A stretch of DNA of 64,000 bases, from contig JAIOYW010000001.1 of assembly GCA_021740915.1 (NCBI GenBank), positions 186,001-250,000 on the forward strand, given 5' to 3'. The number at the start of each line of letters is the position of its first letter. Positions within the stretch are counted from its first letter, which is position 1. The position numbers were made by a program, and so were the translations under genes. The DNA comes from Ignavibacteriales bacterium. GTDB lineage: Bacteria; Bacteroidota; Ignavibacteria; Ignavibacteriales; Melioribacteraceae. Shown in pieces: positions 47,063-64,000 of this stretch. Below the pieces are notes generated by a model. It ran no database searches. It worked only from the letters and a program-made list of their open reading frames with translations, and had not been told where the DNA came from.

Positions 47063-48076
47063 ATGATTCAATCAGAAAAAAAGATCACGAAAATTTTAAT
47101 TATTAAATTGAGGGGAATAGGCGATGTCGTTCAAAGCACTCTGATTTTGGATAGCCTGGTCAGCTCCTTCCCGGGATCTGAAATTGATTATCTGACTGAC
47201 TACCCTTCGGTCGATTTTCTCTCAAAGATTCCTATTGTTAATAGTGTTCTTATATTTCCGCGAAAAGAGCTTTTAAAACGCGTGAAGCTGTTTTATAAAA
47301 TATTTCGAGGACGATACGATCTGGTTATTGATCTGTTTTCAAATCCCGCAAGTGCTCAGGCAACATTTTTTAGCCGCGCAAAATACAGACTGGGGTTTCC
47401 TTATCGGGGAAGAAAATATGCATATAATATCTATGGACCTGAAAACAGAGCTGAATTTCATACTGTTGATTTAAATATTGAACTTATTAAAAAGATTGTA
47501 CATTTTACGCCTACTTCCAGATTTTATTTCGGCTTAACAGAAAGAGATCGTTCGGAAGCGAAGATTTTTTTTAATAACAATTTCCAGAAAACAGATAAAA
47601 TAATTGGGATTTGTCCATCCGGAGGATGGGCATCTAAAAGATGCGACCCGATTAAATTTGCTGAGATAAGTGATTTTCTCATCAGCGAATACTCCGTAAA
47701 AGTAATCATAATTTGGGGCCCTGAAGATAAAACTGATGCCTTGGAGATAACAGAGAAAAGTGGAATGAATTTGGTGCTGGCGCCTCCAACTTCAATCAGT
47801 TCGATGGGTGCATACCTTGAGAATTGTAATATGGTTATTGCGAATGATAGCGGGCCTATGCATATTGCCGTTGCAGTTGGGACTCCGGTTCTTGCTCTCT
47901 TCGGCCCAACCAATCCTAAATTTCATGGTCCTTATGGCGAAAAGCACGCATTTATTCAGTTATCCGACCTGGAATGTATTAATTGTAATTTGTTAAATTG
48001 CCCTTTGGCTCACGAATGTTTTAATAATATTCCGGTTGAAAAGATTAAACCTTTTGTGGATAATTACTTAAAATAA
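47063..48076 (+). CDS. Glycosyltransferase family 9 (heptosyltransferase-like), first of three
   Basis: A 337-residue GT-B fold enzyme of the ADP-heptose:LPS heptosyltransferase type (ILIIKLRGIGDVVQSTLILDSL, GICPSGGWASKRC, IANDSGPMHIAVAVGTPVLALFGPTNP). The C-terminal cysteine cluster LECINCNLLNCPLAHEC is often seen in such environmental family 9 proteins. Donor sugar and acceptor are unknown. First of three adjacent family 9 genes, so part of an outer-surface glycan locus. Confidence 0.88.
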   Translation: MIQSEKKITKILIIKLRGIGDVVQSTLILDSLVSSFPGSEIDYLTDYPSVDFLSKIPIVNSVLIFPRKELLKRVKLFYKIFRGRYDLVIDLFSNPASAQATFFSRAKYRLGFPYRGRKYAYNIYGPENRAEFHTVDLNIELIKKIVHFTPTSRFYFGLTERDRSEAKIFFNNNFQKTDKIIGICPSGGWASKRCDPIKFAEISDFLISEYSVKVIIIWGPEDKTDALEITEKSGMNLVLAPPTSISSMGAYLENCNMVIANDSGPMHIAVAVGTPVLALFGPTNPKFHGPYGEKHAFIQLSDLECINCNLLNCPLAHECFNNIPVEKIKPFVDNYLK

Positions 48077-48119
48077 AAGTGTTTAAATAGTTGTTTACAA
48101 TTATCTTAAGAGTTGATTT

Positions 48120-49154
48120 TTGAAGTCTGTAATAGTATTTATTCTTAAATTATTTTTTGGCTATAATAATAAAACATTTACCAGAAGTAAGAATGGAAAA
48201 CGTATTTTATTAGTTAGACTCAATCGAATCGGAGATGCATTGGTTTGTACTCCAATCATAAAAGCCTTGTTGGATAATAATTTTCAGGTAGATATCATAG
48301 CTGACAAAAAAAATTATTTCATATTTAAGAATTTCTCAGGTATCTCGGAAATCTTTGTTTTTACACACAGATTTAATAGCCTCCTGGATATTATTAAAGC
48401 AACAAATCAAAAACGATTTGATTATATTGTTGACCTCCACGATGATTTGTCAACGACGGTCAGTTTAATAATTGCTTTCTCAAATGCACAGCAGAAATTC
48501 GGACTATCAAAGAAGACAGCCAGCCTTTATTCTAAAACAATTGATCGACCGGATGCCCGGTCAAATCACGTTATTGAACGAATAAGTCAATTATTAAAAT
48601 TATTTAATCTGAATCCAGCGATCGCACAGAAACGTGTATTTTTACCAATTGATAATCGTTCATCGAATATTATTAATAATTTATTGAATGATCACTTCCC
48701 AGGCCATCTACCATTATTAGGCATAAACATCTCAGCGGGCAGCCCTGCCCGTTTCTGGGGCGTGGAAAAATATATAGAACTCCTTGAGTCAATCCCCTCC
48801 CACAGCTTAAACATTATCATACTTTCTTCGCCTGGAGATAAAGAATTAGCTAAACGAATTAGCTCTGGAAAATATCCGACTTTTTCAACCGAAGATTTCA
48901 CTGAATTCGCGGCGATTATTTCAAGATTAAATCTGCTTTTCACCCCTGATACATCTGTCGTTCACCTTGCTTCTGCATATAATATCCCTATGTTTGGAAT
49001 ATATGTTAAATTTAACACTGATGAAATAATTTGGTATCCTTATGATACAGATTATGAGGCAATCATAACAGAGGAGCCAAATTTCATTAATCTTGAAGTG
49101 CAATTGGTAATTAATAAATTAAAAATATTTTTGGGAAATTATGTCAAATATTAA
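48120..49154 (+). CDS. Glycosyltransferase family 9, second of three
   Basis: A 344-residue GT-B enzyme (KRILLVRLNRIGDALVCTPIIKAL, INISAGSPARFWGVEKY, FTPDTSVVHLASAYNIPMFGIY). TTG start at 48120. The donor motif is complete but the C-terminal cysteine cluster of its neighbours is missing. No membrane anchor. The last 14 bases overlap the third family 9 gene. Confidence 0.86.
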   Translation: MKSVIVFILKLFFGYNNKTFTRSKNGKRILLVRLNRIGDALVCTPIIKALLDNNFQVDIIADKKNYFIFKNFSGISEIFVFTHRFNSLLDIIKATNQKRFDYIVDLHDDLSTTVSLIIAFSNAQQKFGLSKKTASLYSKTIDRPDARSNHVIERISQLLKLFNLNPAIAQKRVFLPIDNRSSNIINNLLNDHFPGHLPLLGINISAGSPARFWGVEKYIELLESIPSHSLNIIILSSPGDKELAKRISSGKYPTFSTEDFTEFAAIISRLNLLFTPDTSVVHLASAYNIPMFGIYVKFNTDEIIWYPYDTDYEAIITEEPNFINLEVQLVINKLKIFLGNYVKY

Positions 49155-50265
49155 TAAAGCCCCTGGCTGTAAAAAATTTACCGGATATAAGCCCTGTTAC
49201 CCGGATCATAATTGTTATGGTAATGGATGTAAGGAAAATAATCCTGCACCGATTAAAATTCTAATAATAAACCTTGATGCTATGGGTGACGTAATAATGA
49301 CAACTGCACGTCTTGAAAGCCTTAAAATGAAATTCCCTGACAGTGCAATTTACTGGGTTACAATGAAGATTTCTGCACCCCTGCTTCAGAACAATCCATA
49401 TCTTGATAAAGTATTTATCTATGATTTTGAAACAATAAGCATTCTTGGCCAGATTGAATTTGATTATGTTATGAATGCCGATAAGTCTCAAAAAGCATGT
49501 GCACTCACAAATATCATCAATGCCAAAAATAAACTTGGATTTGGACTTGATTCAAACGGCAAAATTGCACCTATGAATGATGGTGCACTATATAATTATA
49601 ATCTTGGAATGGATGATCATCTAAAATTCAGAGTCAATCAGAAAACAAAGCAGGAGTATCTGGCAGAGACTTTTGAACTTCCTTTAACAAGAGATGAATA
49701 TGTGCTGAATCTGGAACCTGGTGAGATTGAATATATTGAAAAATATAAAACTGAAAAGGGTATTTCACCTGAGGATAAAATAATTGGGTTTAATACGGGT
49801 TGCTCAAATCTTTATCCTAATAAAAAAATGACAATTGAACAACATATCTATCTAATAGATAAGCTACTTTCAAAAGGTCGTTATAAAATTATCTTATTGG
49901 GTGGTCCCGAGGATAAGGAGAGGAATGATAATATTTATTCTCGTTTTCCAGGAAAGATCATCAATACACCTACAAATGACGGAATAAGAAGAGGTGCTTG
50001 TTATGCTTCCATACCCGACGTTGTTGTAACCGGAGATTCATTTGGAATGCATCTTTCGATTGGACTAAAGAAATATATTATTGCCTGGTTCGGATTAAGC
50101 TGCTGGACAGAAATCGATCTTTATGATCGTGGAGTAAAACTATTTCCTCAGGATTTGTTCTGCTCACCCTGCTGGAAAAAATCCTGTCCGTATAATCTTG
50201 AATGTGTAAAAGGTATAGATCTCGATCGGATAATAGCTGAATGTGAAAAATATTTCGTAAACTGA
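49141..50265 (+). CDS. Glycosyltransferase family 9, third of three, with cysteine-rich N-terminus
   Basis: A 374-residue GT-B enzyme (ILIINLDAMGDVIMTTARLES, IIGFNTGCSNLYPNKKM, VVTGDSFGMHLSIGLKKYIIAWFG). It has an extra N-terminal Cys cluster (GCKKFTGYKPCYPDHNCYGNGCKE) and a C-terminal one (LFCSPCWKKSCPYNLEC). Similar N-terminal clusters occur in some family 9 proteins and may bind a metal or Fe-S cluster. Substrates unknown. Confidence 0.86.
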   Translation: MSNINKAPGCKKFTGYKPCYPDHNCYGNGCKENNPAPIKILIINLDAMGDVIMTTARLESLKMKFPDSAIYWVTMKISAPLLQNNPYLDKVFIYDFETISILGQIEFDYVMNADKSQKACALTNIINAKNKLGFGLDSNGKIAPMNDGALYNYNLGMDDHLKFRVNQKTKQEYLAETFELPLTRDEYVLNLEPGEIEYIEKYKTEKGISPEDKIIGFNTGCSNLYPNKKMTIEQHIYLIDKLLSKGRYKIILLGGPEDKERNDNIYSRFPGKIINTPTNDGIRRGACYASIPDVVVTGDSFGMHLSIGLKKYIIAWFGLSCWTEIDLYDRGVKLFPQDLFCSPCWKKSCPYNLECVKGIDLDRIIAECEKYFVN

Positions 50266-51166: not shown

Positions 51167-51992
51167 AATTAATATTGGATTACGGATTACGCAAAGAAGA
51201 CCAGACGGATTTCATAACATTGAAACAATGTTTTATCCAGTACATACTTATTATGACCAAATGAGCTTCTCCAAAAATGAGACATTTTCTTTTTTTTGTG
51301 ATAATGATTTAACAGTAGATATTGAAGATAATCTTGTTGTGCGAGCGTTGCGAAAAATTGAGAGTTATATTAGACGAAATCTACAAGTGGCAATTCGACT
51401 TAAAAAATTTATTCCTGCAGGTGGAGGATTAGGTGGAGGAAGTTCCAATGCAGCAGCTACGTTATTAGCGCTTAATGAAATGTTCGAATTGCAAATTCCG
51501 TTTACAGATCTCAGAAGAATTGCGCTGGAACTGGGCTCAGATGTACCATTTTTTTTGCGACCGAAGCCATGTTTTGCCTCAGGCAGAGGTGAAGTGCTTG
51601 AATACTTAGATGATTTTTTTCTTTATAAATATATAGTTATCATCACTCCGAAAATTCATATATCTACCGCAAAAGCTTTTCAAAAGTATTCTCTTTTACG
51701 AAAGGAAGAAAAGATAGCTGATTTCATTTTTCAACATAAAGAATTTGAACCAAAGAATTACCATCTTTTCAGAAATGTATTCGAAGAAGTGATAACCAAA
51801 GATAATCCTGCAATCGATGAAGCACTTATTTATTTACGTGAATCTGGAGCAGAATACGTTTCATTATCCGGATCGGGTTCATCAGTTTTCGGATTATTTG
51901 AGAAATCGCCGGTGATTGATAAGTTATCGAAAATATTAAGAAATTCAATCATTCATTTTTCAGCACCCGAGGAGGAAAAGCTGTATTATTAG
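51135..51992 (+). CDS. ispE: 4-diphosphocytidyl-2-C-methyl-D-erythritol kinase
   Basis: GHMP kinase of the non-mevalonate isoprenoid pathway (285 residues). Opening SPAKINIGLRITQRRPDGFH, ATP motif PAGGGLGGGSSNAAATLLALN, and C-terminal LSGSGSSVFGLF. The start at ATG 51135 sits inside the end of the preceding gene, and the 3' end overlaps the convergent histidine kinase by four bases. Confidence 0.94.
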   Translation: MNYLELKSPAKINIGLRITQRRPDGFHNIETMFYPVHTYYDQMSFSKNETFSFFCDNDLTVDIEDNLVVRALRKIESYIRRNLQVAIRLKKFIPAGGGLGGGSSNAAATLLALNEMFELQIPFTDLRRIALELGSDVPFFLRPKPCFASGRGEVLEYLDDFFLYKYIVIITPKIHISTAKAFQKYSLLRKEEKIADFIFQHKEFEPKNYHLFRNVFEEVITKDNPAIDEALIYLRESGAEYVSLSGSGSSVFGLFEKSPVIDKLSKILRNSIIHFSAPEEEKLYY

Positions 51993-53377
51993 GTTTTTAC
52001 CTGATAGTCATAGGGCAATGAGATTATCACCTTTGTTCCGGTCTCACTATTATCCTGCTCTGTCCTGCTTTCAATCGCAATCTCTCCCTGAAACCTGATA
52101 ATTATTTCTTTTACAAGTGAGAGTCCCATCCCACTCCCCTCCGCCCCGCTTCTACGAATATTTGTTGCACGATAAAACTGATTAAAAACTTTATCGATAT
52201 CCTGCCGAGGAATACCAATTCCAGTATCTATTATTTGAATTTCACAATAATTATTTCTATCATTGAGTAATACCTCAACATTTCCGTTTTGTTTATTATA
52301 TTTTATTGAGTTATTCAGAATATTTGAAAATGCCAGATTGAAAAGTACTGTATCACCCTTGATAAGCCTGTTTTTCTTTCTGAAATCATTAAATTTTATG
52401 GTGATATTACGCTTTCTGGCATTTTCTGTTTGCTGCTCAATCAATCGGGTTAGTACTTCAATAAGATCAATCTCTTCAGCACTTGAAATATTTAGTAATT
52501 TTACCTGAGATATGCGTAAAATATTATTGATCATTTGTATAGATTCATCTGTCCGCAGTCTGGCTCTCTCCAATTTTTCAGATATTTGGTCTGGAACCGG
52601 GCCCAGATATTTATAAAGTATTAACTCTATTATCGATTGAACGGCAGAAATTGGTGTTTTAATTTCATGAACCACACCCATTATATATTTTTGCTTCATA
52701 GTTTCTAAAGATTCGATCTTATCAAGAGATTCCCTCAATTCTTGTTCCCGGAGATATAAAGACCGGGCAATATTATTTGCCAGAATTACTCCGACAATAA
52801 TCATTGCACTGAATGCAAGTATGAAGAAAAGTACATAATTATCTGTAGGATGAGGCGGCAAGATGGAGTATAAGCCAGTGATAAAATGCGAAGAGATCGT
52901 TGAATTGTGCTGCAATATTATCAAAGTGGAATATGCAATTATTGTAATTGTGGCAATTGTGTAAATAACATAGCCGGGTAAAATCATACTACCAATAATT
53001 ATTTGAAATATATAGAAGATAAATAAGGGACTGTGTATTGTTCCGGTATAATAAATTAAAAGGGTGAGTGAAGACAGATCGAAAACTGACTGTAAAATTG
53101 AAACATGGATCACATTAAAGTTCAGCGATGAAAATGTAGCATAACGCCTGATTATTATTAAAAATATATTATAACAAAAGATCAGACCGGTTATGATTAG
53201 AAAAGCATATAACTGTTTAGGTGAGAAATTAAGTTTAAATACATATTCGCCGAAAGTTATAAGAAGCAGAAGAAATAAAATGAATATAAAACGTAGTTTA
53301 ATAAACCAGAGATTTCTCTCCCTTATTCCTTTCCAAAATTCATCATATCTTTGTGCCCATTCGGGAACAAGGCTCAT
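51989..53377 (-). CDS. Orphan sensor histidine kinase
   Basis: A 462-residue membrane sensor kinase. Several N-terminal membrane helices (about 30-200) hold the sensing part, then a coiled coil, the DHp domain with His237 (GVVHEIKTPIS), and the ATP-binding domain with N box (FSNILNNSIKYNK), G1 (IIDTGIGIP), F box and G2 (GSGMGLSLVKEI). There is no response regulator nearby. It is downstream of the lipoprotein and duplicated membrane proteins, on the same strand, with about 94 bases between. Confidence 0.9.
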   Translation of the reverse strand: MSLVPEWAQRYDEFWKGIRERNLWFIKLRFIFILFLLLLITFGEYVFKLNFSPKQLYAFLIITGLIFCYNIFLIIIRRYATFSSLNFNVIHVSILQSVFDLSSLTLLIYYTGTIHSPLFIFYIFQIIIGSMILPGYVIYTIATITIIAYSTLIILQHNSTISSHFITGLYSILPPHPTDNYVLFFILAFSAMIIVGVILANNIARSLYLREQELRESLDKIESLETMKQKYIMGVVHEIKTPISAVQSIIELILYKYLGPVPDQISEKLERARLRTDESIQMINNILRISQVKLLNISSAEEIDLIEVLTRLIEQQTENARKRNITIKFNDFRKKNRLIKGDTVLFNLAFSNILNNSIKYNKQNGNVEVLLNDRNNYCEIQIIDTGIGIPRQDIDKVFNQFYRATNIRRSGAEGSGMGLSLVKEIIIRFQGEIAIESRTEQDNSETGTKVIISLPYDYQVKT

Positions 53378-53471: not shown

Positions 53472-54317
53472 CTATTGAATATAAATGAACCCTGGTTTTG
53501 AAGGATTAAGGTTAATTATTTCACCTGAAGAGTTCGTTGCGAGAATGTATAAATACCCTAATCGAACAAGGCCCTTCTCATTAGCAGTGAAAATGATATC
53601 AATAAGATTTCCGCTTCCAAAGAATGGCGCTGAATTCTCTAAGGAAATGTATTTCGCTGGGTACATTTTCAAATCATTTCCAGCATCTTCTCTTATTACT
53701 ACTGTCGTATCATTGATGGTGAAATTAAGGGGGTTTCCTGAAATACTAAAAAGTTGGTCGGAGACAGTCAAGGTATCAATGCTTACTTTCGAATCATAGT
53801 AAAATAACATCTCTAAATGTTTAATATTATTAACCTGGTCGGCATTAATGCTTACTGTATCTGATGCGCCTGATTTAACTAATGAATTCGATGGATAAAA
53901 AACGAAGGCTGGACCTTTAATTGCATCAATAAAAAAGTTTCGGCGGAGTGGGTCGCTTACAAATTCATCAATCCTTCCCCTCACACTAAAAAGATATTGA
54001 CCATCGTCCATATTATTAAGAGTGATAGTATTTACCGGTTCATATTCAGACCAATCAATAAGATTTGTGACATTTTTATCCGCATCCCAAAAGTATAAAC
54101 TATAGCTAAAATCAACATCGTCCTGATTTGCTTTCCATGAAAAAGATATTTTATCAGTTGATAATGTATCATTCTCGACAGGGCCAAAAGTAAAATCAAT
54201 AAAAGGCAAAGGCGATTGTACAATATTATCACCACAATATGAAAAAACAATAATACCAAGGATAATAGTCAATAATTTGCTAATTCTTTTAATATGTTTT
54301 GAAATAGAGTGTCTCAC
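53472..54317 (-). CDS. Lipoprotein with cohesin-like domain
   Basis: A 281-residue secreted protein. A signal peptide ending in an imperfect lipobox (VFSYC, then GD) suggests membrane anchoring through Cys28. A first beta domain (about 40-130) looks fibronectin-III-like (FSWKANQDDVDFSYSLYFWD). The second (about 140-281) resembles a cohesin fold: VSINADQVNNIKHLEMLFYYDSKV, then GSGNLIDIIFTANEKGLVRL. Cohesins bind dockerins, but this is a single-domain, non-cellulosomal context. It is downstream of the duplicated pair. Confidence 0.55.
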   Translation of the reverse strand: MRHSISKHIKRISKLLTIILGIIVFSYCGDNIVQSPLPFIDFTFGPVENDTLSTDKISFSWKANQDDVDFSYSLYFWDADKNVTNLIDWSEYEPVNTITLNNMDDGQYLFSVRGRIDEFVSDPLRRNFFIDAIKGPAFVFYPSNSLVKSGASDTVSINADQVNNIKHLEMLFYYDSKVSIDTLTVSDQLFSISGNPLNFTINDTTVVIREDAGNDLKMYPAKYISLENSAPFFGSGNLIDIIFTANEKGLVRLGYLYILATNSSGEIINLNPSKPGFIYIQ

Positions 54318-54324
54318 ATATTTC

Positions 54325-55716
54325 CTAATAATTTATCCTGATCAGAGGAGAAAATGTTACATAATTTTCCCACCGGTAAAATGGCACTCCATTTGTGGTC
54401 CATTTAATAGCTTTATAAAATCTAATATCAAATCCAAAAGTATTATTAAGCAAAAACCGGTATTTCATTCCAAGGTAGCTGTAGGCATCATTAAAATTGT
54501 AATTAAACTGAAGTCCAATATTATGAACAAACCATCCAGAATATTTATTAATACTGGCATCAATTTTTATATTTGTTTTTATAGAACCAGAGCTAACCGT
54601 TGTCTTAAGATCTTTTTCTCCGGGGACTAAATAATAATCATTAAGATCATGAATATTTACTCCCAGTCCGGCATCCAACAAACCCAGATTCAAAACCTCA
54701 GTTAGATCGGTGTAAGTAGCAGAGAAGCCAAAATAATTTCGGATAGAATAAAATTTTGTCAGATAATCGATTCCATAATCATTACGGGAAAATTTTGAAG
54801 GTGTGAAATATCCATCAAGAGTAATATCTATTTTCCCAAGTTCAGGCATAAAATATTTTAGTGGTCTTCCACCAACAGAGATATAAACACTGCTCCCGGA
54901 TCGGTACAGTCTATGTCCATAAATATCTTGGTTGAAACTGAATTCCGGCTGTCGAACGCCGAATCCCAGTGCGATCATTCCTCGATATGAACTGTAAGGG
55001 CGACTATTAACAATTGAGTCAACATACTGAATACCAATCCCCGCAAAATAGTCAGGGCTGTACCATCCGGGATAAATGCTCTCATTGTTGCCCCATTTGC
55101 CCTTTAGGGAAAAAAGATATTTTTTCCTTGAAGTAGTATTTAAAGTATATACTAGAAATTCCGGGTCGAACAGAGACATATAAATATCGAAATTATAACC
55201 AGAATAAGAATAACTTTCCTCTTTGGTGATATCGATATTTGAATACCCTTTTTTTTGCAGATTATTATAAAGGTCATTTCCCAATATTTCTTTTATAACT
55301 AAGTGATCCTCAGTAACATCAAAGAAATAATTCCGTTTCGTAGTATCAAGAGAATAAACCTGCTCAGTGAAAAATCTTAGTTGTTCAATTTCAGAATCAT
55401 AATATCGCTGTCTGAACTCAACAAATATTTTCCCATCGTATATTTCCTTGGCTCGTGCATTAATCTCACCAGCATCAGCATTTTTACCGTCAATTCGCAA
55501 AGCGCGATTAATAATAAATTTATTAAATATTTGCCTGACGATTAAAGGATCGTTTAATATCCAACTATGCTTAAGATCATTAAATGCAGTTGTGTTATAT
55601 TCCAATGATTTATAGACGGAAACAGCACGTTCATGTTCTTGTCCAAAGGTAAATGAAGAAACCAGAACTAAGATGAAGAGAAAAGTTAAATAGCGGGTTT
55701 TAATCCTCATACTCAA
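54325..55716 (-). CDS. Secreted outer-membrane protein B' (second copy of B)
   Basis: A 463-residue secreted protein with a signal peptide (to about residue 25). Its N-terminal half has a helical segment (SLEYNTTAFNDLKHSWILNDPLIVRQIFNKF) that matches protein B (57341-58726) nearly residue for residue; the C-terminal half has many amphipathic strands and ends in a final aromatic, VTFSPLIRINY, as expected for an outer-membrane barrel. A four-base overlap links it to A'. I cannot name a family. Confidence 0.6.
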   Translation of the reverse strand: MSMRIKTRYLTFLFILVLVSSFTFGQEHERAVSVYKSLEYNTTAFNDLKHSWILNDPLIVRQIFNKFIINRALRIDGKNADAGEINARAKEIYDGKIFVEFRQRYYDSEIEQLRFFTEQVYSLDTTKRNYFFDVTEDHLVIKEILGNDLYNNLQKKGYSNIDITKEESYSYSGYNFDIYMSLFDPEFLVYTLNTTSRKKYLFSLKGKWGNNESIYPGWYSPDYFAGIGIQYVDSIVNSRPYSSYRGMIALGFGVRQPEFSFNQDIYGHRLYRSGSSVYISVGGRPLKYFMPELGKIDITLDGYFTPSKFSRNDYGIDYLTKFYSIRNYFGFSATYTDLTEVLNLGLLDAGLGVNIHDLNDYYLVPGEKDLKTTVSSGSIKTNIKIDASINKYSGWFVHNIGLQFNYNFNDAYSYLGMKYRFLLNNTFGFDIRFYKAIKWTTNGVPFYRWENYVTFSPLIRINY

Positions 55717-57230
55717 AACCCATACCTGTATATGAATCCCAAATAAGTACTACTTTTATTTTCCCATTCACGGGTTCCTCTATATAAGGGTGAGGATAGA
55801 ATATGTGTCTCGAATCTCACAATATGTAAACTATCAAATTCAAGAAGTTTTAGCCATAACTTCGCTCGGATAACACTATCGTACATTCTAAGATTAGCAT
55901 GAAAGAGTTCTGTCTCTTTGCCCTTAATCTTTGGAATAAAATTTAAATGGAAACCAATGAGCGGGTTAATAGAGTTAAAAACCTCTGAGGTTTTCGGAGA
56001 AGCGCCCCCAATATAATCAGCTCTGATAACATTGTATGATCCTGCACCAATGTCAAACCTAAGGCGTACGGTTCCTTCCTGATTTGTTTGCCAGTAATAA
56101 GATATTGTTGTCATCCACTGAGAATTTGTAAAATATGCATGACTACGGCCGGGGCCTGTATTAAATCGATAATATGGATTATTTATTTCTGAACTGCCGG
56201 TTGAATAATCAATATTTATGAAGGGAGACTCATATATTCTTGATGTGCTAAGCGATAAATCAACGCCGGGCTGCACGTTTAGTTTCGGAATTTCAGTAAC
56301 CATAAAAGGTAGGTTAGTTGCTAAATTAACAGTATTAATTTTAAACCTGGCTAAAACTTTTATATCAAAAGAAATACTATTTTCAGGCCCTTGTGAGCCG
56401 GTTAAAAACGTCAGGCTCCTGACGCCGCCTTTCATGATCATCCCCTGCCATGGCAAAAGATTCAATAAATCATGTTCAAATGAGAGCTCAGCTCCAAGTG
56501 TTGTAAAATCAAAATTCATTTCAGGGTGGAAAAAAGTAGCTTTATAAAAAGAACCTTCTATTTTCATATTCCCGCCAGCGGACGATTCTCGTCTTGACCG
56601 CCTGCCGCCGGCAGAGGCGGTAGTAGTTTTCGGATATGAGTGCGATGAATTTATTCCTTGATAATTCAAAAAGTCTGAATTATCTCTTGAAAAGACAGCC
56701 CCTCTCATAATAAAACTTTCATCAATAGGAATAGTCAATTTAGATTCCGGCTCAGTTTCTTGGGATAATTTTTCAACTAAATTAGTAATCTTATTGTATA
56801 AATTCTTATCTGTAAAATAAAGATTATTGAAATCCTGAAACTTTATAACAGCGTTTATCTCAGTTTTTGTTTCACCTTCCTGGACAGAGATATCGCCAAA
56901 TAATCTCCCCTCCGATGCGGCAGTAGAAGTCAATTCTTCCCTAAGCTCAAGCATAATTAATGTGTCTATCTCAGGTGAACTTTTGGAGTAAAGGAATTTA
57001 TAAATCACATTTTCGTCTATTCTAAAATTGAAAAGGTTTCCATTCTTTAGCGGAATACTTCTCAAATCATTTAATAAACTTTCGGTAGGAGTGAATTGAA
57101 CAGAATGTATATCGAGATACCCTTCATCTAATCGTATTTTTTTATCGATACGTTTGTAAATCTCATTTAGATTCTGAGAAAAACAAATAGAATTCAATAG
57201 AATAAATAATAATGGGAATAAAATACGCAT
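55713..57230 (-). CDS. Secreted outer-membrane protein A' (second copy of A)
   Basis: A 505-residue secreted protein, paralogous to A (58734-60260). Signal peptide 1-18; N-terminal domain to about 190 (FRIDENVIYKFLY); conserved SRDNSDFLNY; a basic linker (GGRRSRRESSAGG) that includes a GC-rich palindrome at the DNA level; then a long beta-rich region (NLLPWQGMIMKGGVRSLTFL ...) that ends FIYRYGF with a terminal Phe, as in many outer-membrane barrels. A' starts just after a terminator-like hairpin. Confidence 0.6.
   Translation of the reverse strand: MRILFPLLFILLNSICFSQNLNEIYKRIDKKIRLDEGYLDIHSVQFTPTESLLNDLRSIPLKNGNLFNFRIDENVIYKFLYSKSSPEIDTLIMLELREELTSTAASEGRLFGDISVQEGETKTEINAVIKFQDFNNLYFTDKNLYNKITNLVEKLSQETEPESKLTIPIDESFIMRGAVFSRDNSDFLNYQGINSSHSYPKTTTASAGGRRSRRESSAGGNMKIEGSFYKATFFHPEMNFDFTTLGAELSFEHDLLNLLPWQGMIMKGGVRSLTFLTGSQGPENSISFDIKVLARFKINTVNLATNLPFMVTEIPKLNVQPGVDLSLSTSRIYESPFINIDYSTGSSEINNPYYRFNTGPGRSHAYFTNSQWMTTISYYWQTNQEGTVRLRFDIGAGSYNVIRADYIGGASPKTSEVFNSINPLIGFHLNFIPKIKGKETELFHANLRMYDSVIRAKLWLKLLEFDSLHIVRFETHILSSPLYRGTREWENKSSTYLGFIYRYGF
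56598..56620. repeat. GC-rich imperfect palindrome inside the A' gene
   Basis: Inside an otherwise AT-rich gene, 23 bases of almost only G and C form a hairpin: CCGCC pairs with GGCGG, and TGCC with GGCA, with a two-base bulge and a three-base loop. It is in frame and encodes part of the low-complexity linker (ASAGGRR). It could be a REP-like or RPE-like mobile palindrome, but only one copy was seen in this window. Confidence 0.5.
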
Positions 57231-57249
57231 TTATAGTTCTGGGATCGCC

Positions 57250-57290
57250 TTATTAAAAGCGGATAGATCCGGTCAATCTATCCGCATTAT
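57250..57290 (-). terminator. Terminator-like hairpin between B and A'
   Basis: GCGGATAGAT (57259-57268), loop CCGGTCA, ATCTATCCGC (57276-57285): a perfect 10-base stem, followed on the minus strand by TTTTAATAA. It separates the A-B from the A'-B' unit. Confidence 0.6.
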
Positions 57291-57340
57291 TAAACTCTAC
57301 AACTCTAAGAATTGAGTCTTAATTTTTATTGATTCGCCAA

Positions 57341-58726
57341 TTAATAATTGATTCGAAGTACTGGTGAAAATACTATATAACTTGAAGCACGGTAACGCTC
57401 AGATGTCGGAACACCTAAACCGTTAAACACTTTTAGATGCAATCCTAAATTATTACTAAGCATTACTTTGGAATCAATTCCATAATAACCGTAACCACCA
57501 ACCAGATTGTAGCCGGCAATAATTTTAATCAGATGTTGAATCAGACCACCTTCGTTTTCAATTATAGATTCAAGATACAAATAATGCTGGAATCTGTCGA
57601 AAGTACTTTGTGGTTTCGTATCTACTAATGCTCCGGCAACAGGATCAATCATAAAACTATATTTATCATGAGTTACAAATCCACCACCTATTCCATAATC
57701 CCCAAAGTCAGAAAGATTGTATAGTTTTCTTTTAACCCAGGAGAATGAGAAATAATTTTTTATCGAGGCAAATTCAACTTGACGCCTCAAACCAAAATCT
57801 TTGTACTTATAGTCTCCATAAGTAAACATTGCATCAATATTCAAATACACTTTATCAAAGTAGTCCCAGATGTATTTAGCAAAATCGCCTGAGAAGGTAA
57901 AATAAGCGGCATCTCCGGATTTGAATACTGGTTTTTTAGACAGACCAGATGTGAACATTTTACCGCCGTCAGTCACCATTCCCAAACCAATGCGGTAGGT
58001 GTAATCTGCTGGATCTTCAGTTAAAGCTGAATAATATGTTATTGATGAACCAAGCGTATAATCCGAAGAATACCACCCTGGCATAAATATTTCGTCATGT
58101 CCCCATTTACCAAATAGGTGCCACAAATATTTATTGCGCTGGCCGGATGTTGTTGACCAGACCAGAACATGTGGATCTAAAAGGTCGATATTGACATCCA
58201 TGAAATATCCATATTTCGTATCAAAGACATCTTTCGTCAATGAACTATAAAAATATGTCTGTTCCTGAAGCTTATCATAAAGCCTTATGCCAATGATATC
58301 CTTTAAATAGAATCCATCAACAACCGGGTCAAATAATGGAGTTGGATTAATATTTTGCATTTCTGTGTTTGCAACAAACGCAAAATACTCAAATTCGTCA
58401 TCGTAGTACCTTCTCCGAAGATCAACGACTACATCTCCTTCTAAGATTGCCTTGGCTTTCTCTTCAAGTACTGCTTTAGAAGCGGGCATACCGTTAATTC
58501 TTAGTGCATTTTTAACTGTGAAACGGTTAAATAATTCGCGGATAAAACCGGGATCATTGATGAACCATTTACTCTTCAGATCTTCAAATGCTATTGTATT
58601 GTATTCCAGGTTAGAATAGATTTTATCCAACTCTGAGAAAACTTCCGGACTTGCATCCTGACTGTAAATCTGAGTGACAGTAAAAATTAAAGCGAAATAA
58701 AGTAATATTATTTTTTTCATTGTCAT
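57341..58726 (-). CDS. Secreted outer-membrane protein B
   Basis: A 461-residue protein with a signal peptide (MTMKKIILLYFALIFTVTQIYS). Residues 25-110 form a helical domain (NLEYNTIAFEDLKSKWFINDP ... VVDLRRRYYDDEFEYFAFV) shared with B'. From about residue 140 to the end it is strand-rich, ending YIVFSPVLRINY with a terminal aromatic, so an outer-membrane barrel is likely. Stop to next gene: 110 bases with a terminator. No GldN/PorN signature seen. Unknown family. Confidence 0.6.
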   Translation of the reverse strand: MTMKKIILLYFALIFTVTQIYSQDASPEVFSELDKIYSNLEYNTIAFEDLKSKWFINDPGFIRELFNRFTVKNALRINGMPASKAVLEEKAKAILEGDVVVDLRRRYYDDEFEYFAFVANTEMQNINPTPLFDPVVDGFYLKDIIGIRLYDKLQEQTYFYSSLTKDVFDTKYGYFMDVNIDLLDPHVLVWSTTSGQRNKYLWHLFGKWGHDEIFMPGWYSSDYTLGSSITYYSALTEDPADYTYRIGLGMVTDGGKMFTSGLSKKPVFKSGDAAYFTFSGDFAKYIWDYFDKVYLNIDAMFTYGDYKYKDFGLRRQVEFASIKNYFSFSWVKRKLYNLSDFGDYGIGGGFVTHDKYSFMIDPVAGALVDTKPQSTFDRFQHYLYLESIIENEGGLIQHLIKIIAGYNLVGGYGYYGIDSKVMLSNNLGLHLKVFNGLGVPTSERYRASSYIVFSPVLRINY

Positions 58727-58733
58727 TTTCGTT

Positions 58734-60260
58734 TTAATTATTTAAACCATATCTATATCTAAGCTGAACCATTGCGCCGCCATCAGTTTCCCATTCATAA
58801 GCTTTTCTGAACATGGCTCCTGCCTGATAGATTGCTTCAAGTCTGAATGTATGGAATGGAGCGATTTTGAAAATCGCAAGCCAGGTGTTTATTCTTGCTC
58901 TGCCATCAAAAACACGCAATGTACCCCCGAGAATTGGATTGTCTTTTGGAACCCATGTAAAATTCAATGCAACCATCGGTTGAAATTTTGCATGTACTTC
59001 TTTACTGCTCGTCAGGCTGCCGGAATTACTGTAAGTGCCTTTTGTGACACTATAATAACCACCACCAACATCCATACGGAAACGCGAAGTCATTTTATCA
59101 GATGTGTTCCAATAAAATGAATAAGACATCATTGCCTGAGCGTGAGAAAAATAAGCTACCTTTTGGTTATTCCTGGTTACAATGATATCTGGTGATTTCT
59201 GACCGCCCTGGCTTGCAGAGAAGTATAAATTGATGAAGGGCAGCCCCATCAATCTGGTAAAATTGAATTCAGCTAAAAATGATGGTTTGAAATTCATCAC
59301 AGGAGTATCGCCAAGAATCCAGGGCTGATTATCGTAAACTGCAGTAGTCCCGATTGGGAATCGTGCTCCAAATCTTGCATTTAAGAAAGTTGATTCAGTT
59401 ACTTTATCTTTGGGAGATAGTAAAAACAACATTCTGATGGCTGCAGCAACAGTATTTGATTCCCATGGTAAAAGATGAAGAACCGGCTCCTCAAAATTCA
59501 ATTCGACGCTTGCACCACCATCTTCAAGAATAGCGTTCATTGCCTCATGAGAAAACATTATCTTCGAAGCACTTGCATCAATCTTAAAAGTAGTTTTGCC
59601 GGCAGCTGCATCCGCGGCACCTCGTCTAGATCCTCTTCCCTGTTTTTCAGTTTGATCAGAAAACCAGGTCAGATCATAAACTTTAACGTGATTAAAATAA
59701 TCGGCGTTATCTCTGGAGGAAATACCAAGACTCATGTGAATTTCTTCATCAGGATTAATCCTTAATAAAGATTCCGGTGGTGTTTCTTCATTCTCCCGAA
59801 GATATTTGTCGATATATTGTTTCAGAGCTGCATATTGCGGAGCATCATTCATTTTAAGTTTGTACATATCCGTGAATGTTAAAACCCTGAGAGTATCATC
59901 AGAAGGAGCCGAAAGAGCACCAAACAGACCCTCAGTTGCAGCAGCAGCCCTTGTAATCTGATCGAGATAGAGGACATAAACGGAATCTATGCCAATACCT
60001 TCTTTCAGAAATACAACTCGATAGCTGACATTCTCATCGAAGAGCATTGTAAAGGGCTCTTCCTTTGTCACTCTTGGGACAGATTTCAAAGACTCGCTTG
60101 TTTTCTCTGGCTCTGGTTGAAACGTCAAAGCGTGAAGATTTAAGTAGTCTTTATCTTTACGTAGTTTGAGATCAATCTTACTCAGATATTCATCCAGTTT
60201 CTGAGCATTTGTTGATAGGATCCCGAAGAATAACGACAATAGAATTATTTTTCTGATCAT
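58734..60260 (-). CDS. Secreted outer-membrane protein A
   Basis: A 508-residue protein with a signal peptide (about 1-19). An N-terminal domain up to about 200 (YLSKIDLKLRKDKDYLNLHALTF ... SRDNADYFNHV) is followed by a basic/Ala-rich linker (GRGSRRGAADAAAG) and a beta-rich segment with HLLPWESN, FNFTRLMGLPFINLYF and a C-terminal VQLRYRYGLNN. It is clearly homologous to A', and the domain order is the same. Its position just after the 360-residue secreted protein and before B suggests a role in one complex. Confidence 0.6.
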   Translation of the reverse strand: MIRKIILLSLFFGILSTNAQKLDEYLSKIDLKLRKDKDYLNLHALTFQPEPEKTSESLKSVPRVTKEEPFTMLFDENVSYRVVFLKEGIGIDSVYVLYLDQITRAAAATEGLFGALSAPSDDTLRVLTFTDMYKLKMNDAPQYAALKQYIDKYLRENEETPPESLLRINPDEEIHMSLGISSRDNADYFNHVKVYDLTWFSDQTEKQGRGSRRGAADAAAGKTTFKIDASASKIMFSHEAMNAILEDGGASVELNFEEPVLHLLPWESNTVAAAIRMLFLLSPKDKVTESTFLNARFGARFPIGTTAVYDNQPWILGDTPVMNFKPSFLAEFNFTRLMGLPFINLYFSASQGGQKSPDIIVTRNNQKVAYFSHAQAMMSYSFYWNTSDKMTSRFRMDVGGGYYSVTKGTYSNSGSLTSSKEVHAKFQPMVALNFTWVPKDNPILGGTLRVFDGRARINTWLAIFKIAPFHTFRLEAIYQAGAMFRKAYEWETDGGAMVQLRYRYGLNN

Positions 60261-60287: not shown

Positions 60288-61370
60288 TTATTTTACAATA
60301 GTTGCTGAATATTTGCGTTCAACGTTACGTTCATACTGTGTGTTAAAACGAAAAGTCAAAGTAACTGGTGCATCATCACAAAATTCCATCGCATCTAAAT
60401 ATGATTGATTTAGATCAAGAATAACATAACCAAAATTACCCTGAGAAGTCGTTGTCCCGCCCCTAGAGGTCAGAAATTCCGCAGGGTTGCATTCAACACG
60501 CAAACTTGTGATTTTGGGTGCAATTACAACAAGATTACCATCGCTGGAAAGTCCTGTATAAACATATAGAAATCTAAGCAAATTTTCATTTAGAGGACTA
60601 ATAAACAGTTCTTTCTTTTCTCTTTTACCGTCTTCAGGAAACCAATTAACGTACTCATCGAGATTTGGCTTACTGACAGAGAACTCCCAGATTGAGGTTT
60701 TTACTTCGTCGGGTTTGTCAATCATTTTATAATCAAAAGGTTCGCCGTTATATTTTCCTATGATTTTAAAAGTACGTCCGACATATGTATCATTTTTTAG
60801 AACATCATCAAGTGATATTACCGATCCGGTTCCAGAAGCTATTTCACCGCCTGATGCATCTTCAATTGAATATGAATAGCCTGAGATATTTGAAAATTCA
60901 ACAGTTGCAAAACTGAATGTAACCTTTTCAGTAGGGTAATATCTTGGTTGAATATTCAACTTTGAAGCAATAGTCGGATAGTTCACTTCAACTGCGTAAA
61001 CCGCTGTTGCATTACCCCTGCCTTTCTCATCGGTGTAATTAATTTCTATTTTAACGAAATAATTGCCAGTTTTTTCAATAACATCTTCAACCTGGTAGCG
61101 AACCATCACACCACGCTCGCCAGCTTTGATAGTTTTTGGTTCCTGAATCGCGGTTTCAATATCTTTGATGAAGCCCTGATTCTCATCAAGAAGCGAGGAC
61201 TTAAAAGTAATATCTTTTATATTTGTAAGAACAATCTGCTTATCGCCGGGGACCTTAAATTTTTCATATACGACAGTGTTAACTGTGTCAACCACCCTCC
61301 CTTGCCCTTGAATTAAAGTGGTCACTAAAAGAAATAATCCGAACGATAAAAATCCTGCAAATTTCTTCAT
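60288..61370 (-). CDS. Secreted beta-rich protein, possible GldM C-terminal half
   Basis: A 360-residue protein with a signal peptide (MKKFAGFLSFGLFLLVTTLIQGQG). The rest looks like three or four all-beta domains (strand patterns at about 60-125, 130-210, 215-260, 265-360), without membrane helices. In GldM/PorM the periplasmic part is four domains (D1-D4); the 200-residue upstream protein plus this one would give about the same total. Residue-level homology to GldM was not seen, so this is a topology-based inference. GGAG precedes ATG 61370. Confidence 0.55.
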   Translation of the reverse strand: MKKFAGFLSFGLFLLVTTLIQGQGRVVDTVNTVVYEKFKVPGDKQIVLTNIKDITFKSSLLDENQGFIKDIETAIQEPKTIKAGERGVMVRYQVEDVIEKTGNYFVKIEINYTDEKGRGNATAVYAVEVNYPTIASKLNIQPRYYPTEKVTFSFATVEFSNISGYSYSIEDASGGEIASGTGSVISLDDVLKNDTYVGRTFKIIGKYNGEPFDYKMIDKPDEVKTSIWEFSVSKPNLDEYVNWFPEDGKREKKELFISPLNENLLRFLYVYTGLSSDGNLVVIAPKITSLRVECNPAEFLTSRGGTTTSQGNFGYVILDLNQSYLDAMEFCDDAPVTLTFRFNTQYERNVERKYSATIVK

Positions 61371-61393: not shown

Positions 61394-61418
61394 TTTCGGG
61401 AGGATAAACCTCCCGAAA
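61394..61418 (-). terminator. Strong hairpin between the two GldM-like genes
   Basis: TTTCGGGAGG (61394-61403), loop ATAAA, CCTCCCGAAA (61409-61418) forms a perfect 10-base stem. On the minus strand the following bases are TTTATTAAATATTTGG, so the U tract is weak. It lies directly before the ribosome-binding site of the 360-residue gene and may attenuate or stabilise the transcript rather than simply end it. Confidence 0.5.
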
Positions 61419-61488: not shown

Positions 61489-62091
61489 TTAGAAGGAAAT
61501 TTCCGACTGCATTGTTTGTACACCACCACCAACTTTAACAGAAACTAAAAATTTCTCTTTTTCACTAACTGCCTTTTGCTGCTCCCCTATCTCTTCTTTA
61601 AGCATGTGAAGCAATTCTGTGGTAAGATATGTGGGAAGTTGTCTATCGACCTGGCAGTAAGCTACAAAGGAGTAATCTCCTCCTGACTTAAACTGACCAA
61701 GGAAGATAGCATTACCCTGACCCTTCTGAATTTTGAAATCATTTGTACCAGATGAAAGACTTATTCCACCCTGTGGCCATCCGGCAGGTCTATTTCTTGA
61801 TGATGGGGCTATATCAATAAAATACTCAACAAAATCAGCTTCTTCACTAGATGAAAGTCCCACTGGTGTCATAATGATTTTGTGGGGCTCTTTCGACCCG
61901 ATATTATAAGTTGACTCACTTTGGGGAATTTGCAGAAATACGGGTTGTTTGTAGTTCTGAGCTAACTGAACAATCATTTTGTCCCGGATCTCGTGCTCTT
62001 TCTCCTCAAGTTCATCTCTCTCCGTAATTACTATAAGAAGTTCTACTATCAGAACCACGTATAGTATGAAGTAGACCATACTTTTCTTCAT
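61489..62091 (-). CDS. GldM/PorM N-terminal-like membrane protein
   Basis: A 200-residue protein with one N-terminal membrane helix (about residues 5-23, with a buried Glu17), then a charged helix (ERDELEEKEHEIRDKM), a beta-rich domain (about 50-150), a helix (LPTYLTTELLHMLKEEIGEQQKAV) and a last strand region. This topology (short cytoplasmic tail, one helix, periplasmic domain) matches the GldM/PorM N-terminal part, which wraps its helix in the GldL helical bundle. Lys2 and Lys3 could stand in for GldM Arg9. It lies 24 bases after the GldL-like gene. Confidence 0.55.
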   Translation of the reverse strand: MKKSMVYFILYVVLIVELLIVITERDELEEKEHEIRDKMIVQLAQNYKQPVFLQIPQSESTYNIGSKEPHKIIMTPVGLSSSEEADFVEYFIDIAPSSRNRPAGWPQGGISLSSGTNDFKIQKGQGNAIFLGQFKSGGDYSFVAYCQVDRQLPTYLTTELLHMLKEEIGEQQKAVSEKEKFLVSVKVGGGVQTMQSEISF

Positions 62092-62115: not shown

Positions 62116-62661
62116 TCAGTGTTTTAACGAATCTTTTAGACTATTTAATGCATCCAGATTTTTCTTCTGTATTTCTGTAATTTTTAATGATATTTTCTCA
62201 TACCTGTCGAGATATCCCTCGATCATTTTTAATTCTTCATCGGTGATAGTCTTGAGAACGTTCACTGTGTCTTTAACTTCCTGTGGAGAAACACCAATGG
62301 CTTTTTTCATCGGAACAGGTTCTGGCTCAGCATCTTTTGGTGCACCATGACCATGATCATCCTCAGGGGTAAAGAATGTTACTGTCGCCATTAGAAGCAA
62401 TAATAAGAACTCAAGAATTAATGCACCTAAGACCCACTGAACAGCTAATTTTCCATTGTCCAGCAAATAGGGATCGATGACAGGAATGCCCTGAACAGCG
62501 GCTCCAAGTCCCCTAAGACCGACTATTATAATGAGTAAAGCTGCTCCGACGTAAACCAAACCCATTACGTTGTTGGCAAAACGCGGAATAAATGTGTAAA
62601 CCATAAAACGACCAAAAGCAGTTTTCGGCGTATTGGCGCCTGAAGACTTTTGACTTGACAC
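62116..62661 (-). CDS. GldL/PorL-like inner-membrane motor protein
   Basis: A 181-residue protein (GTG start, GGAGG ribosome-binding site eight bases upstream). Two membrane helices (about 33-56 and 72-97) are joined by a short periplasmic loop; Glu84 lies in the middle of the second (GALILEFLLLLLM). GldL of Flavobacterium has two helices, with Glu49 in the second as the proton-carrying residue. The arrangement of helices, the glutamate, a following acidic FTPEDDHGH and a C-terminal cytoplasmic coiled-coil helix (about 128-181) all match. The overall sequence is divergent, so this is a motif-level call. Confidence 0.6.
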   Translation of the reverse strand: MSSQKSSGANTPKTAFGRFMVYTFIPRFANNVMGLVYVGAALLIIIVGLRGLGAAVQGIPVIDPYLLDNGKLAVQWVLGALILEFLLLLLMATVTFFTPEDDHGHGAPKDAEPEPVPMKKAIGVSPQEVKDTVNVLKTITDEELKMIEGYLDRYEKISLKITEIQKKNLDALNSLKDSLKH

Positions 62662-62863: not shown

Positions 62864-63973
62864 TCAATCTTTTTGCGCATCGTTTTCTTCGAACCAGTCA
62901 AAAAATTCCATTAGGGCTTCTCTTCTTTCTGGTGAAACATAGTAAAAATTGATTCCCCTGGAATTAATTTCGTAGAATTCCTGGTCGAGAGTCTTTAAAA
63001 TTATTTCCTTTATTTTTCGAATGCGTCTCAAAGGTTCAATTTTCATATCTGTATATATAACTCTTGCCAGATTTCTTGCATTGTTCAATAGATAAAATCC
63101 TGCTAATTTCACCTGTGCAATTCTAACGCCGATAAGTGAAATTTCTTTCTTATGAGTCTCATCACTCTCGACATTTTCTATTGGCTCATCAAGGTTCAAA
63201 AATGCGTGTAACAGCGGAATTAGATTAACAACATTACGGCTAAATGCGATTTCATTTATCTGGCAGAGGTCATGAGCCGCAGTTTCAAGAATAAAGAAAA
63301 CATTATTTTTATTTGCTTCCTGCCCATAATACTTAAAATATTCGGAAATTTTTTCAACTTCGTATGGATTACTTTCTAAAAGTCCTTCTGCAACAATTCT
63401 GTAATGTTCCAGAGTGTTAAATGCAGAGCGAGGAGAACGATCCGAGATGGCAATCCTCAGATATGTGTTGAAATATTGGAAAATGACCTGGAGAACACCT
63501 GTATCGTTATATTTGATAGCTTCAAAAGCAATTAATTCTGTATTGAGTAATACCCCTCCGGCTGCATCCCGAAGTTGTACATGAGATTTTTGAAGCACTA
63601 ATTCATAAAGTCTGAATATTTTTCGTTCGAGCAGAATTTTTCGTTGTTCAATATTATTCATCACGTAAGTTGAATAACTTGAAAAATCCGGATCCATAAA
63701 TTCAGTGCCTGTCCTCTCAAACCATGCAGGGGGAAGATTTTTTTTAACCCCAAGATAAAGAACAGAAATTTCTCGAAGTGTATTCAAACATAACAGAATC
63801 ACAGCTCTATCACCCTGATATATTGAATTCAGCGCAATATCGCCAATAAAGTTTATATCCTCTTTTACATTTTCAATCAGATTAACAGAATAATTAATTT
63901 TATTACGGCTAAGCTTATTGAATACTTTAAAAATCTCAATCTCTATATTTTTAAGAAAAACTGTTGGCTGCAT
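62864..63973 (-). CDS. Unknown helical protein at the window edge (N-terminus possibly incomplete)
   Basis: At least 369 residues. The frame remains open upstream of ATG 63973 to the window end, so the start may be further out. The sequence is mostly alpha-helical. A patch at about 175-215 (AISDRSPRSAFNTLEHYRIVAEGLL) faintly recalls the 'ALSPGINDPFTA' region of DUF2254 membrane proteins, but this is a weak resemblance. If it has membrane helices, they would be in the missing N-terminal part. Transcribed toward the motor genes. Confidence 0.5.
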   Translation of the reverse strand: MQPTVFLKNIEIEIFKVFNKLSRNKINYSVNLIENVKEDINFIGDIALNSIYQGDRAVILLCLNTLREISVLYLGVKKNLPPAWFERTGTEFMDPDFSSYSTYVMNNIEQRKILLERKIFRLYELVLQKSHVQLRDAAGGVLLNTELIAFEAIKYNDTGVLQVIFQYFNTYLRIAISDRSPRSAFNTLEHYRIVAEGLLESNPYEVEKISEYFKYYGQEANKNNVFFILETAAHDLCQINEIAFSRNVVNLIPLLHAFLNLDEPIENVESDETHKKEISLIGVRIAQVKLAGFYLLNNARNLARVIYTDMKIEPLRRIRKIKEIILKTLDQEFYEINSRGINFYYVSPERREALMEFFDWFEENDAQKD

Positions 63974-64000
63974 AAAATTGAAAACGTAAATAAAATGCGG

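Follow-up and report, generated by a model that had tools for sequence, protein, structure and literature searches.

The closest described systems are the GldLM motor of gliding and type IX secretion and the adhesin-barrel pair SprB/SprF of gliding. In the accessible text of the papers concerned, glutamate E49 of GldL is strictly conserved, and the F. johnsoniae motor does not work without it (PMC8986121); the barrel SprF anchors the adhesin SprB, called a type B substrate, and links it to the moving track, with a disulfide link reported between SprF and GldK (PMC12635249). Here we describe a gene cluster from an Ignavibacteriales bacterium (Melioribacteraceae; assembly GCA_021740915.1, contig JAIOYW010000001.1, positions 186,001-250,000 of the forward strand). 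This whole stretch of 64,000 nucleotides (nt) is referred to as the window. Judged from its sequence, the cluster is a divergent motor locus of the GldL family, with new partners at the outer membrane. It reads X-L-M-C-A-B-A'-B'-D, where L is the GldL-like gene and A-B and A'-B' are two copies of one gene pair (Table 1); in some relatives a giant gene stands between B' and D.

An earlier note on this DNA had read A, B, A' and B' as an old tandem duplication of a two-gene outer-membrane unit, each protein having a signal peptide and matching its copy over most of its length. The four open reading frames have the positions and sizes noted there and lie on one strand, and each starts with a signal-peptide-like stretch as read from the sequence. 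BLASTP aligned A with A' at 30% identity over 498 columns (E 3e-70) and B with B' at 31% over 461 columns (E 2e-71), which bears out the match. In global alignments the A/A' and B/B' scores were 36 and 34 standard deviations above those of 200 shuffles, compared with only 0.8–4.6 for the cross pairs A/B, A/B', A'/B and A'/B'. A and A' are true paralogues, as are B and B', in the order A-B-A'-B'. At the C-terminus A ends in YRYGLNN, A' in YRYGF, and both B and B' in RINY. The gap between A and B is 7 nt, A' and B' overlap by 4 nt, and 110 nt separate B from A'. The Pfam, NCBIfam and PHROGs scans yielded no family that fits A, B, A' or B', and none of these proteins matched PorP/SprF or PorV models of NCBIfam/Pfam at E-values up to 1.

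Table 1. Features of the cluster, with positions counted from the first nucleotide of the window.
Feature	Position	Strand	Description
X	62864-64000	(-)	DUF2254 membrane protein, 529 amino acids (aa) in all; start outside the window at 64453 (same scale)
L	62116-62661	(-)	GldL-family inner-membrane protein; two transmembrane segments (by eye), cytoplasmic tail; glutamate E84 in the second segment
M	61489-62091	(-)	single N-terminal transmembrane segment and periplasmic domain; likeness to GldM confined to position and layout
Terminator-like hairpin between M and C	61394-61418	(-)	inside the presumed operon; consensus match only
C	60288-61370	(-)	signal-peptide-like start; conserved neighbour of M (alignment, gene maps)
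A	58734-60260	(-)	508 aa; predicted outer-membrane beta-barrel, residues ~188-508, with an N-terminal, presumably periplasmic, domain
B	57341-58726	(-)	461 aa; predicted outer-membrane beta-barrel, residues ~170-461, with an N-terminal alpha/beta domain
Terminator-like hairpin between B and A'	57259-57285	(-)	11 pairs, then TTTT; intrinsic-terminator type
A'	55713-57230	(-)	505 aa; paralogue of A (30% identity; A' clade 99/99)
B'	54325-55716	(-)	463 aa; paralogue of B (31% identity; B' clade 100/99)
D	53472-54317	(-)	probable lipoprotein (by eye); last gene of the cluster

The age of the duplication was addressed in a sample of 58 genomes from the family and order of the window, its own genome included (the relatives below). 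B was present in 19 of them, and two B genes about 3 kb apart were seen in genomes of two families (f1 and f3). A scan of named records gave 37 loci, assigned to Melioribacteraceae, Melioribacter, Ignavibacteriaceae, Ignavibacteriales, Ignavibacteria/Ignavibacteriae, Chlorobiota and one Bacteroidetes metagenome-assembled genome (MAG). In the B tree (62 rows) the distal B' proteins form a single branch of 27 rows with support 100/99, and the A tree (65 rows) likewise has all A' proteins on one branch (29 rows, 99/99). The proximal A proteins form a branch of 33 rows (83/88); the monophyly of the proximal B proteins was neither resolved nor rejected (P value of the approximately unbiased test, p-AU, 0.453). 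The root between A and A' depends on two long outgroup rows, and the long-branched locus L128 takes different positions in the two trees. Patristic distances among the A proteins correlate with those among the A' proteins over the 22 loci with both copies (r 0.80), and B correlates with B' to the same degree over loci with both copies (r 0.80); in both cases 0 of 999 permutations were as high.

The simplest reading is that the A-B unit was duplicated as a whole on one occasion, before the divergence of the Melioribacteraceae-type and Ignavibacteriaceae-type lineages, and that the copies descended together from then on. Four genomes (G007, G010, G026 and G038) combine a single B match with an L of normal length, and most likely lost A'-B', since their A and B group with the proximal A and B. 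An old and retained tandem duplication, as the earlier note had it, is thus supported by the single A' and B' clades and by the presence of the block in two families; separate lineages brought together by transfer are not what the trees show.

The suggestion that the proteins are beta-barrels held for A and B in AlphaFold2 models, which were built from alignments of 53 and 51 sequences and had a mean pLDDT (predicted local distance difference test) of 85.5 and 84.5, respectively. Both models consist of an N-terminal domain followed by a C-terminal beta-barrel, and A and B are on this basis predicted outer-membrane barrels; A' and B' are probably barrels as well by homology. In VIA-align searches FadL/TodX-type barrels were the best matches for the barrel of A (Z up to 14.7, 238 residues aligned, root-mean-square deviation 4.0) and of B (Z up to 13.3, 213 or 231 aligned, 4.1–4.3). 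A also aligned with 8gl6_F, a chain of a type IX complex (Z 12.2, 229 aligned). The likeness to FadL speaks for fold and not for function, because folds are widely shared among barrels. The searches barely cover the N-terminal domains, which comprise about 150 residues each and fall outside the aligned range.

Directly upstream of this unit lie the genes that had been called motor-like, a reading supported for L by homology to GldL via an intermediate family. Glutamate E84 in the second transmembrane segment of L is found in 32 of 32 L proteins and aligns with E49 of GldL; R50 is found in 31 of the 32. The GldL model TIGR03513 did not match the L of the window at E-values up to 1, and canonical GldL passed the cut-off in none of the 58 relatives and in 28 of 118 genomes taken from across the phylum. 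The two are connected by A9, a subfamily of ~270-aa proteins of which eight sequences were aligned. With single-pair E-values, hhalign matched A9 to window-type L at a probability of 98.3 (E 2e-14; reversed L control 0.4) and to canonical GldL at 88.2 (E 2.9e-6; reversed A9 control 4.4), and none of 60 block shuffles reached the latter's score of 48.8 (best 23.8). An hmmsearch with A9 found 6 of 18 GldL proteins at E 10 or better, the best at 1.9e-7 in this set of 18 sequences. These profile comparisons make L remotely homologous to GldL, which is the proton-channel subunit of the gliding and type IX motor.

Clear L matches occur in 20 of the relatives, after G032 (E 0.003) and G041 (E 0.009) had been dropped for internal stops from the 22 found at E-values up to 0.01. 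The A9 profile had matches in 18 relatives, 17 of them being L genes already found and one a further frame in G036, and revealed no second GldL-type gene in the genome of the window. Over the phylum, the L profile matched 51 of 395 genomes, and every one of them belongs to the class of the window. Those from orders other than that of the window mostly have two to five matches each, part of them fragments of a single gene. Genomes of such orders carry several GldL-family paralogues, in length classes of ~270, ~340 and ~450 aa (L203, L205, L208, L210, L211 and others), and at L203 and L208 the ~450-aa form adjoins a gene of ~1900 aa.

M is GldM-like only by its position and its one N-terminal transmembrane segment; it had no sequence match to GldM. 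Its residues Y7, F8, Y11, E17, E24, R25 and D26 are found in 32 of 32 M proteins. C, A+A' and B+B' gave no match to GldK or GldN profiles, X, D and the giants not being scored. Profile searches of the PDB with L, M, C, A+A' and B+B' brought up nothing meaningful, the best match being 9l08_A for L (E 0.00065), in which no stretch passed alone. Two further candidates were rejected: the ~500-aa protein encoded beside A9 matched none of GldM, M and C, and a GldN-like start in B had a probability of 6.1 over 21 signal-peptide columns.

Gene maps of loci from two families of the order show the conserved order X-L-M-C-A-B-A'-B'. X matches PF10011 at 8.5e-14 (51.6 bits, cut-off 28.8). A count by hand places it ahead of L in 22 of the 23 tandem loci whose upstream sequence is ~1.6 kb or longer, L098 being the exception, and in 0 of 4 single-pair loci (L097, L108, L119 and L121; Fisher p 0.0003). 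This count leaves out L116 (little upstream sequence), the truncated L104 and L126 and the divergent L048, all three with X, and L130, which lacks it. The D of the window has no Pfam match. Its relatives suggest FN3-like and cohesin-like parts, with Y_Y_Y over the cut-off in one and Cohesin below it in three.

In 15 of 27 assessable A'-B' loci a giant repeat gene on the same strand comes directly after B', compared with 0 of the 4 assessable loci that have a single A-B pair. For the locus of the window this assessment used the window sequence itself. The count excludes loci that stop close to the last B gene or right at it, or contain an incomplete distal pair (L101, L104, L108, L111, L114, L117, L125, L126 and L044), as well as the divergent or fragmentary L128, L133, L136 and L048, these four having no giant; L122 and L131 belong to a single MAG, and the single-pair L118 from the same MAG as L130. 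Four linked giants are complete, with 4635, 4833, 5237 and 5413 aa. Each of them has at its C-terminal end a type IX sorting domain (TIGR04183) over the cut-off, also seen in the giant of L131, and by this domain the giants are type IX secretion substrates. Their size and repeats suggest that they are adhesins. A homologue of D (26–30% identity) directly follows the giant in three of the four complete cases (L240, L242 and L243); in the window, L095 and L129, D comes directly after B'. The association of the giant with A'-B' is suggestive only.

The repeats match Kre9/KNH-like immunoglobulin (Ig) domains. Such domains occur in 46 of the 58 genomes, and because they are so widespread in the order they do not by themselves mark this system. 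The genome of the window has SprA and at least 150 sorting-domain matches, and encodes on another contig a 2578-aa type IX protein (L190:3059-10795) with a few such repeats and TIGR04183 over the cut-off. The start of this protein looks cohesin-like by eye. Across the order SprA was over the cut-off in 57 of 58 genomes and canonical GldL in none, which raises the question of how type IX export is energised there.

Relative rates were compared between pairs of loci picked after the trees were known, with L120/L045 left out as it shares a branch with L116/L120. The ratio of A' to A distances was 0.68–1.16 in six locus pairs with a giant vs 1.27–1.8 in four without (U test p 0.0095). For B'/B the ratios were 0.50–0.95 vs 0.73–1.54, in the same direction (p 0.11). 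Means over all pairs, which are not independent, were 0.89 with the giant, 1.23 without and 1.04 for mixed pairs for A'/A, and 0.87, 1.27 and 1.10 for B'/B. The slower change of A' relative to A where a giant is present would fit an A'-B' pair that carries it.

We give an even chance to the reading that the locus encodes a trans-envelope motor core, in which a GldLM-type motor drives barrel pairs, A-B being the basic pair and A'-B' one specialised for a giant adhesin. L, and by position M, would form a proton-driven inner-membrane motor of the GldL/GldM type, M and the exported protein C would carry the motion across the periplasm, and the A and B barrels would take it up at the outer membrane via their N-terminal domains. 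The A-B unit duplicated once, ahead of the split between the two family-type lineages. The original A-B might have remained the basic motor-coupled pair, since it is the pair found in single-copy loci, and A'-B' may have specialised to hold or move a giant adhesin that the type IX system exports. The lineage of the window would have lost the giant gene at this place, rather than others having gained it later, and kept A'-B' together with D. The carrying roles proposed for L-M-C and A'-B' are modelled on the Bacteroidota precedent of GldLM, track, SprF and SprB. One could go further and see a second, independently organised GldLM-type branch, in which paired barrels take the place of the GldK/GldN/GldJ track and of SprF and the duplicated pair is a dedicated carrier of a ~5,000-residue adhesin. 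That would make it a gliding-type system in a group for which we found no report of gliding; this we consider possible and rather doubtful.

Several observations weigh against the motor-core reading. Direct hhalign of L against canonical GldL failed, with a probability of 7.5 below that of the reversed control (23.3), and a test of the transmembrane hairpin of L against that of GldL was equalled by 3 of 60 shuffles. Since hhalign found no match of M, C, A or B to GldM, GldN or GldK profiles, only L ties the cluster to GldLM. The MAG S143_55 has the motor genes followed directly by A'-B' and a giant, without X (L130), and its A-B lies on a separate contig without motor genes (L118), so that A-B is not always the pair adjoining the motor. 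X is also present at the divergent single-pair locus L048. No adjoining giant is found at 12 of the 27 A'-B' loci, that of the window among them, and the difference between 15 of 27 and 0 of 4 is not significant (Fisher p 0.10). We found no motility or secretion phenotype tied to the system, and M. roseus is described as flagellated in the accessible text of two papers (PMC3534657 and PMC9318685).

The earlier note had also proposed two separate, non-redundant complexes with different cargo. This view gains only indirect support, from the distribution of the giant and of X and from the relative rates. Partner-specific co-evolution, on the other hand, is not clean: the distances of A' correlate with those of B (r 0.885) as highly as with those of B' (r 0.89).

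Alternatively, L-M may power type IX export, either in general or of one giant, with A-B and A'-B' as substrate carrier barrels like PorV or SprF and no movement at the surface. The alignment of A with FadL-type barrels and with the type IX chain 8gl6_F, the type A sorting domains of the giants and the lack of canonical GldL in an order where SprA is nearly universal would all suit such a secretion module. We nevertheless consider it unlikely, as a clear L in just 20 of the 58 relatives compared with SprA in 57 rules L out as the general type IX motor, and neither A nor B matches the PorV or PorP/SprF models. More improbable still is that the pairs are energised barrels for uptake of two ligands or for envelope maintenance, using the motor in a Ton/Tol-like way, with the giant a coincidental neighbour. 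Both barrels do align best with FadL/TodX uptake channels, and the giant is missing from nearly half of the A'-B' loci; yet each barrel has the additional N-terminal domain outside the aligned range, the motor is of the GldL type, and the same kind of giant stands at the same place in both families. That A' and B' came from a sister system by horizontal transfer instead of duplication in place is very improbable, for although the patchy presence of B could be explained by transfer of the whole cluster and the A/A' root hangs on two outgroup rows, adjacency and order are fixed in both families, the A/A' and B/B' distance matrices agree, and A'-B' without A-B was seen only on contig fragments or in S143_55, where A-B is on another contig.

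The cluster is not described in the literature we found on Ignavibacteria gliding, type IX secretion, SprB, GldL and Melioribacter motility, a body in which subscription journals are mostly uncovered; the accessible text of PMC3534657, PMC9318685, PMC8986121, PMC12635249 and PMC9389320 does not describe it either. If the motor-core reading is correct, GldL-type motors would extend to a clade in which the standard model misses them, and the GldK/GldN/SprF route would have an alternative as output at the outer membrane. The natural duplication would allow one barrel pair to be compared with and without an adhesin, and it would become testable how the type IX genomes of the order (SprA in 57 of 58) work without a recognisable canonical GldL. 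The locus and the giant of its relatives would then point to an overlooked surface machine.

Elsewhere in the window, downstream of D and on the same strand, lies an open reading frame that we take to be sensor histidine kinase-like (51989-53377). Three in a row at 47063-50265 are presumably glycosyltransferase-like and resemble lipopolysaccharide heptosyltransferases.

Compared with the GldLM motor, L shares the GldL-type transmembrane hairpin and the invariant glutamate of its second segment, is homologous through the intermediate family, and is followed by a protein with one transmembrane segment. M is, however, much shorter than GldM (200 aa vs 509–590 aa in 18 GldM proteins) and has a separate exported neighbour in C; none of C, A and B matches GldK or GldN, and TIGR03513 misses L. 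For the barrel domains FadL/TodX proteins are the closest in fold (Z 13.3 for B and 14.7 for A), at 4–13% identity among the matches listed, but A and B have no Pfam or NCBIfam match and carry an extra domain of ~150 residues at the N-terminus. As in the SprB/SprF system of F. johnsoniae gliding, a giant surface protein apparently exported by the type IX system is encoded beside outer-membrane barrel genes and a motor. The two differ in that A and B match no SprF/PorP model and that the four linked giants have type A sorting domains, whereas SprB is of type B. A disulfide link like that of SprF with GldK is unlikely here, because cysteines past residue 25 are absent from 60 of 65 A-type proteins and from 52 of 62 B-type proteins.

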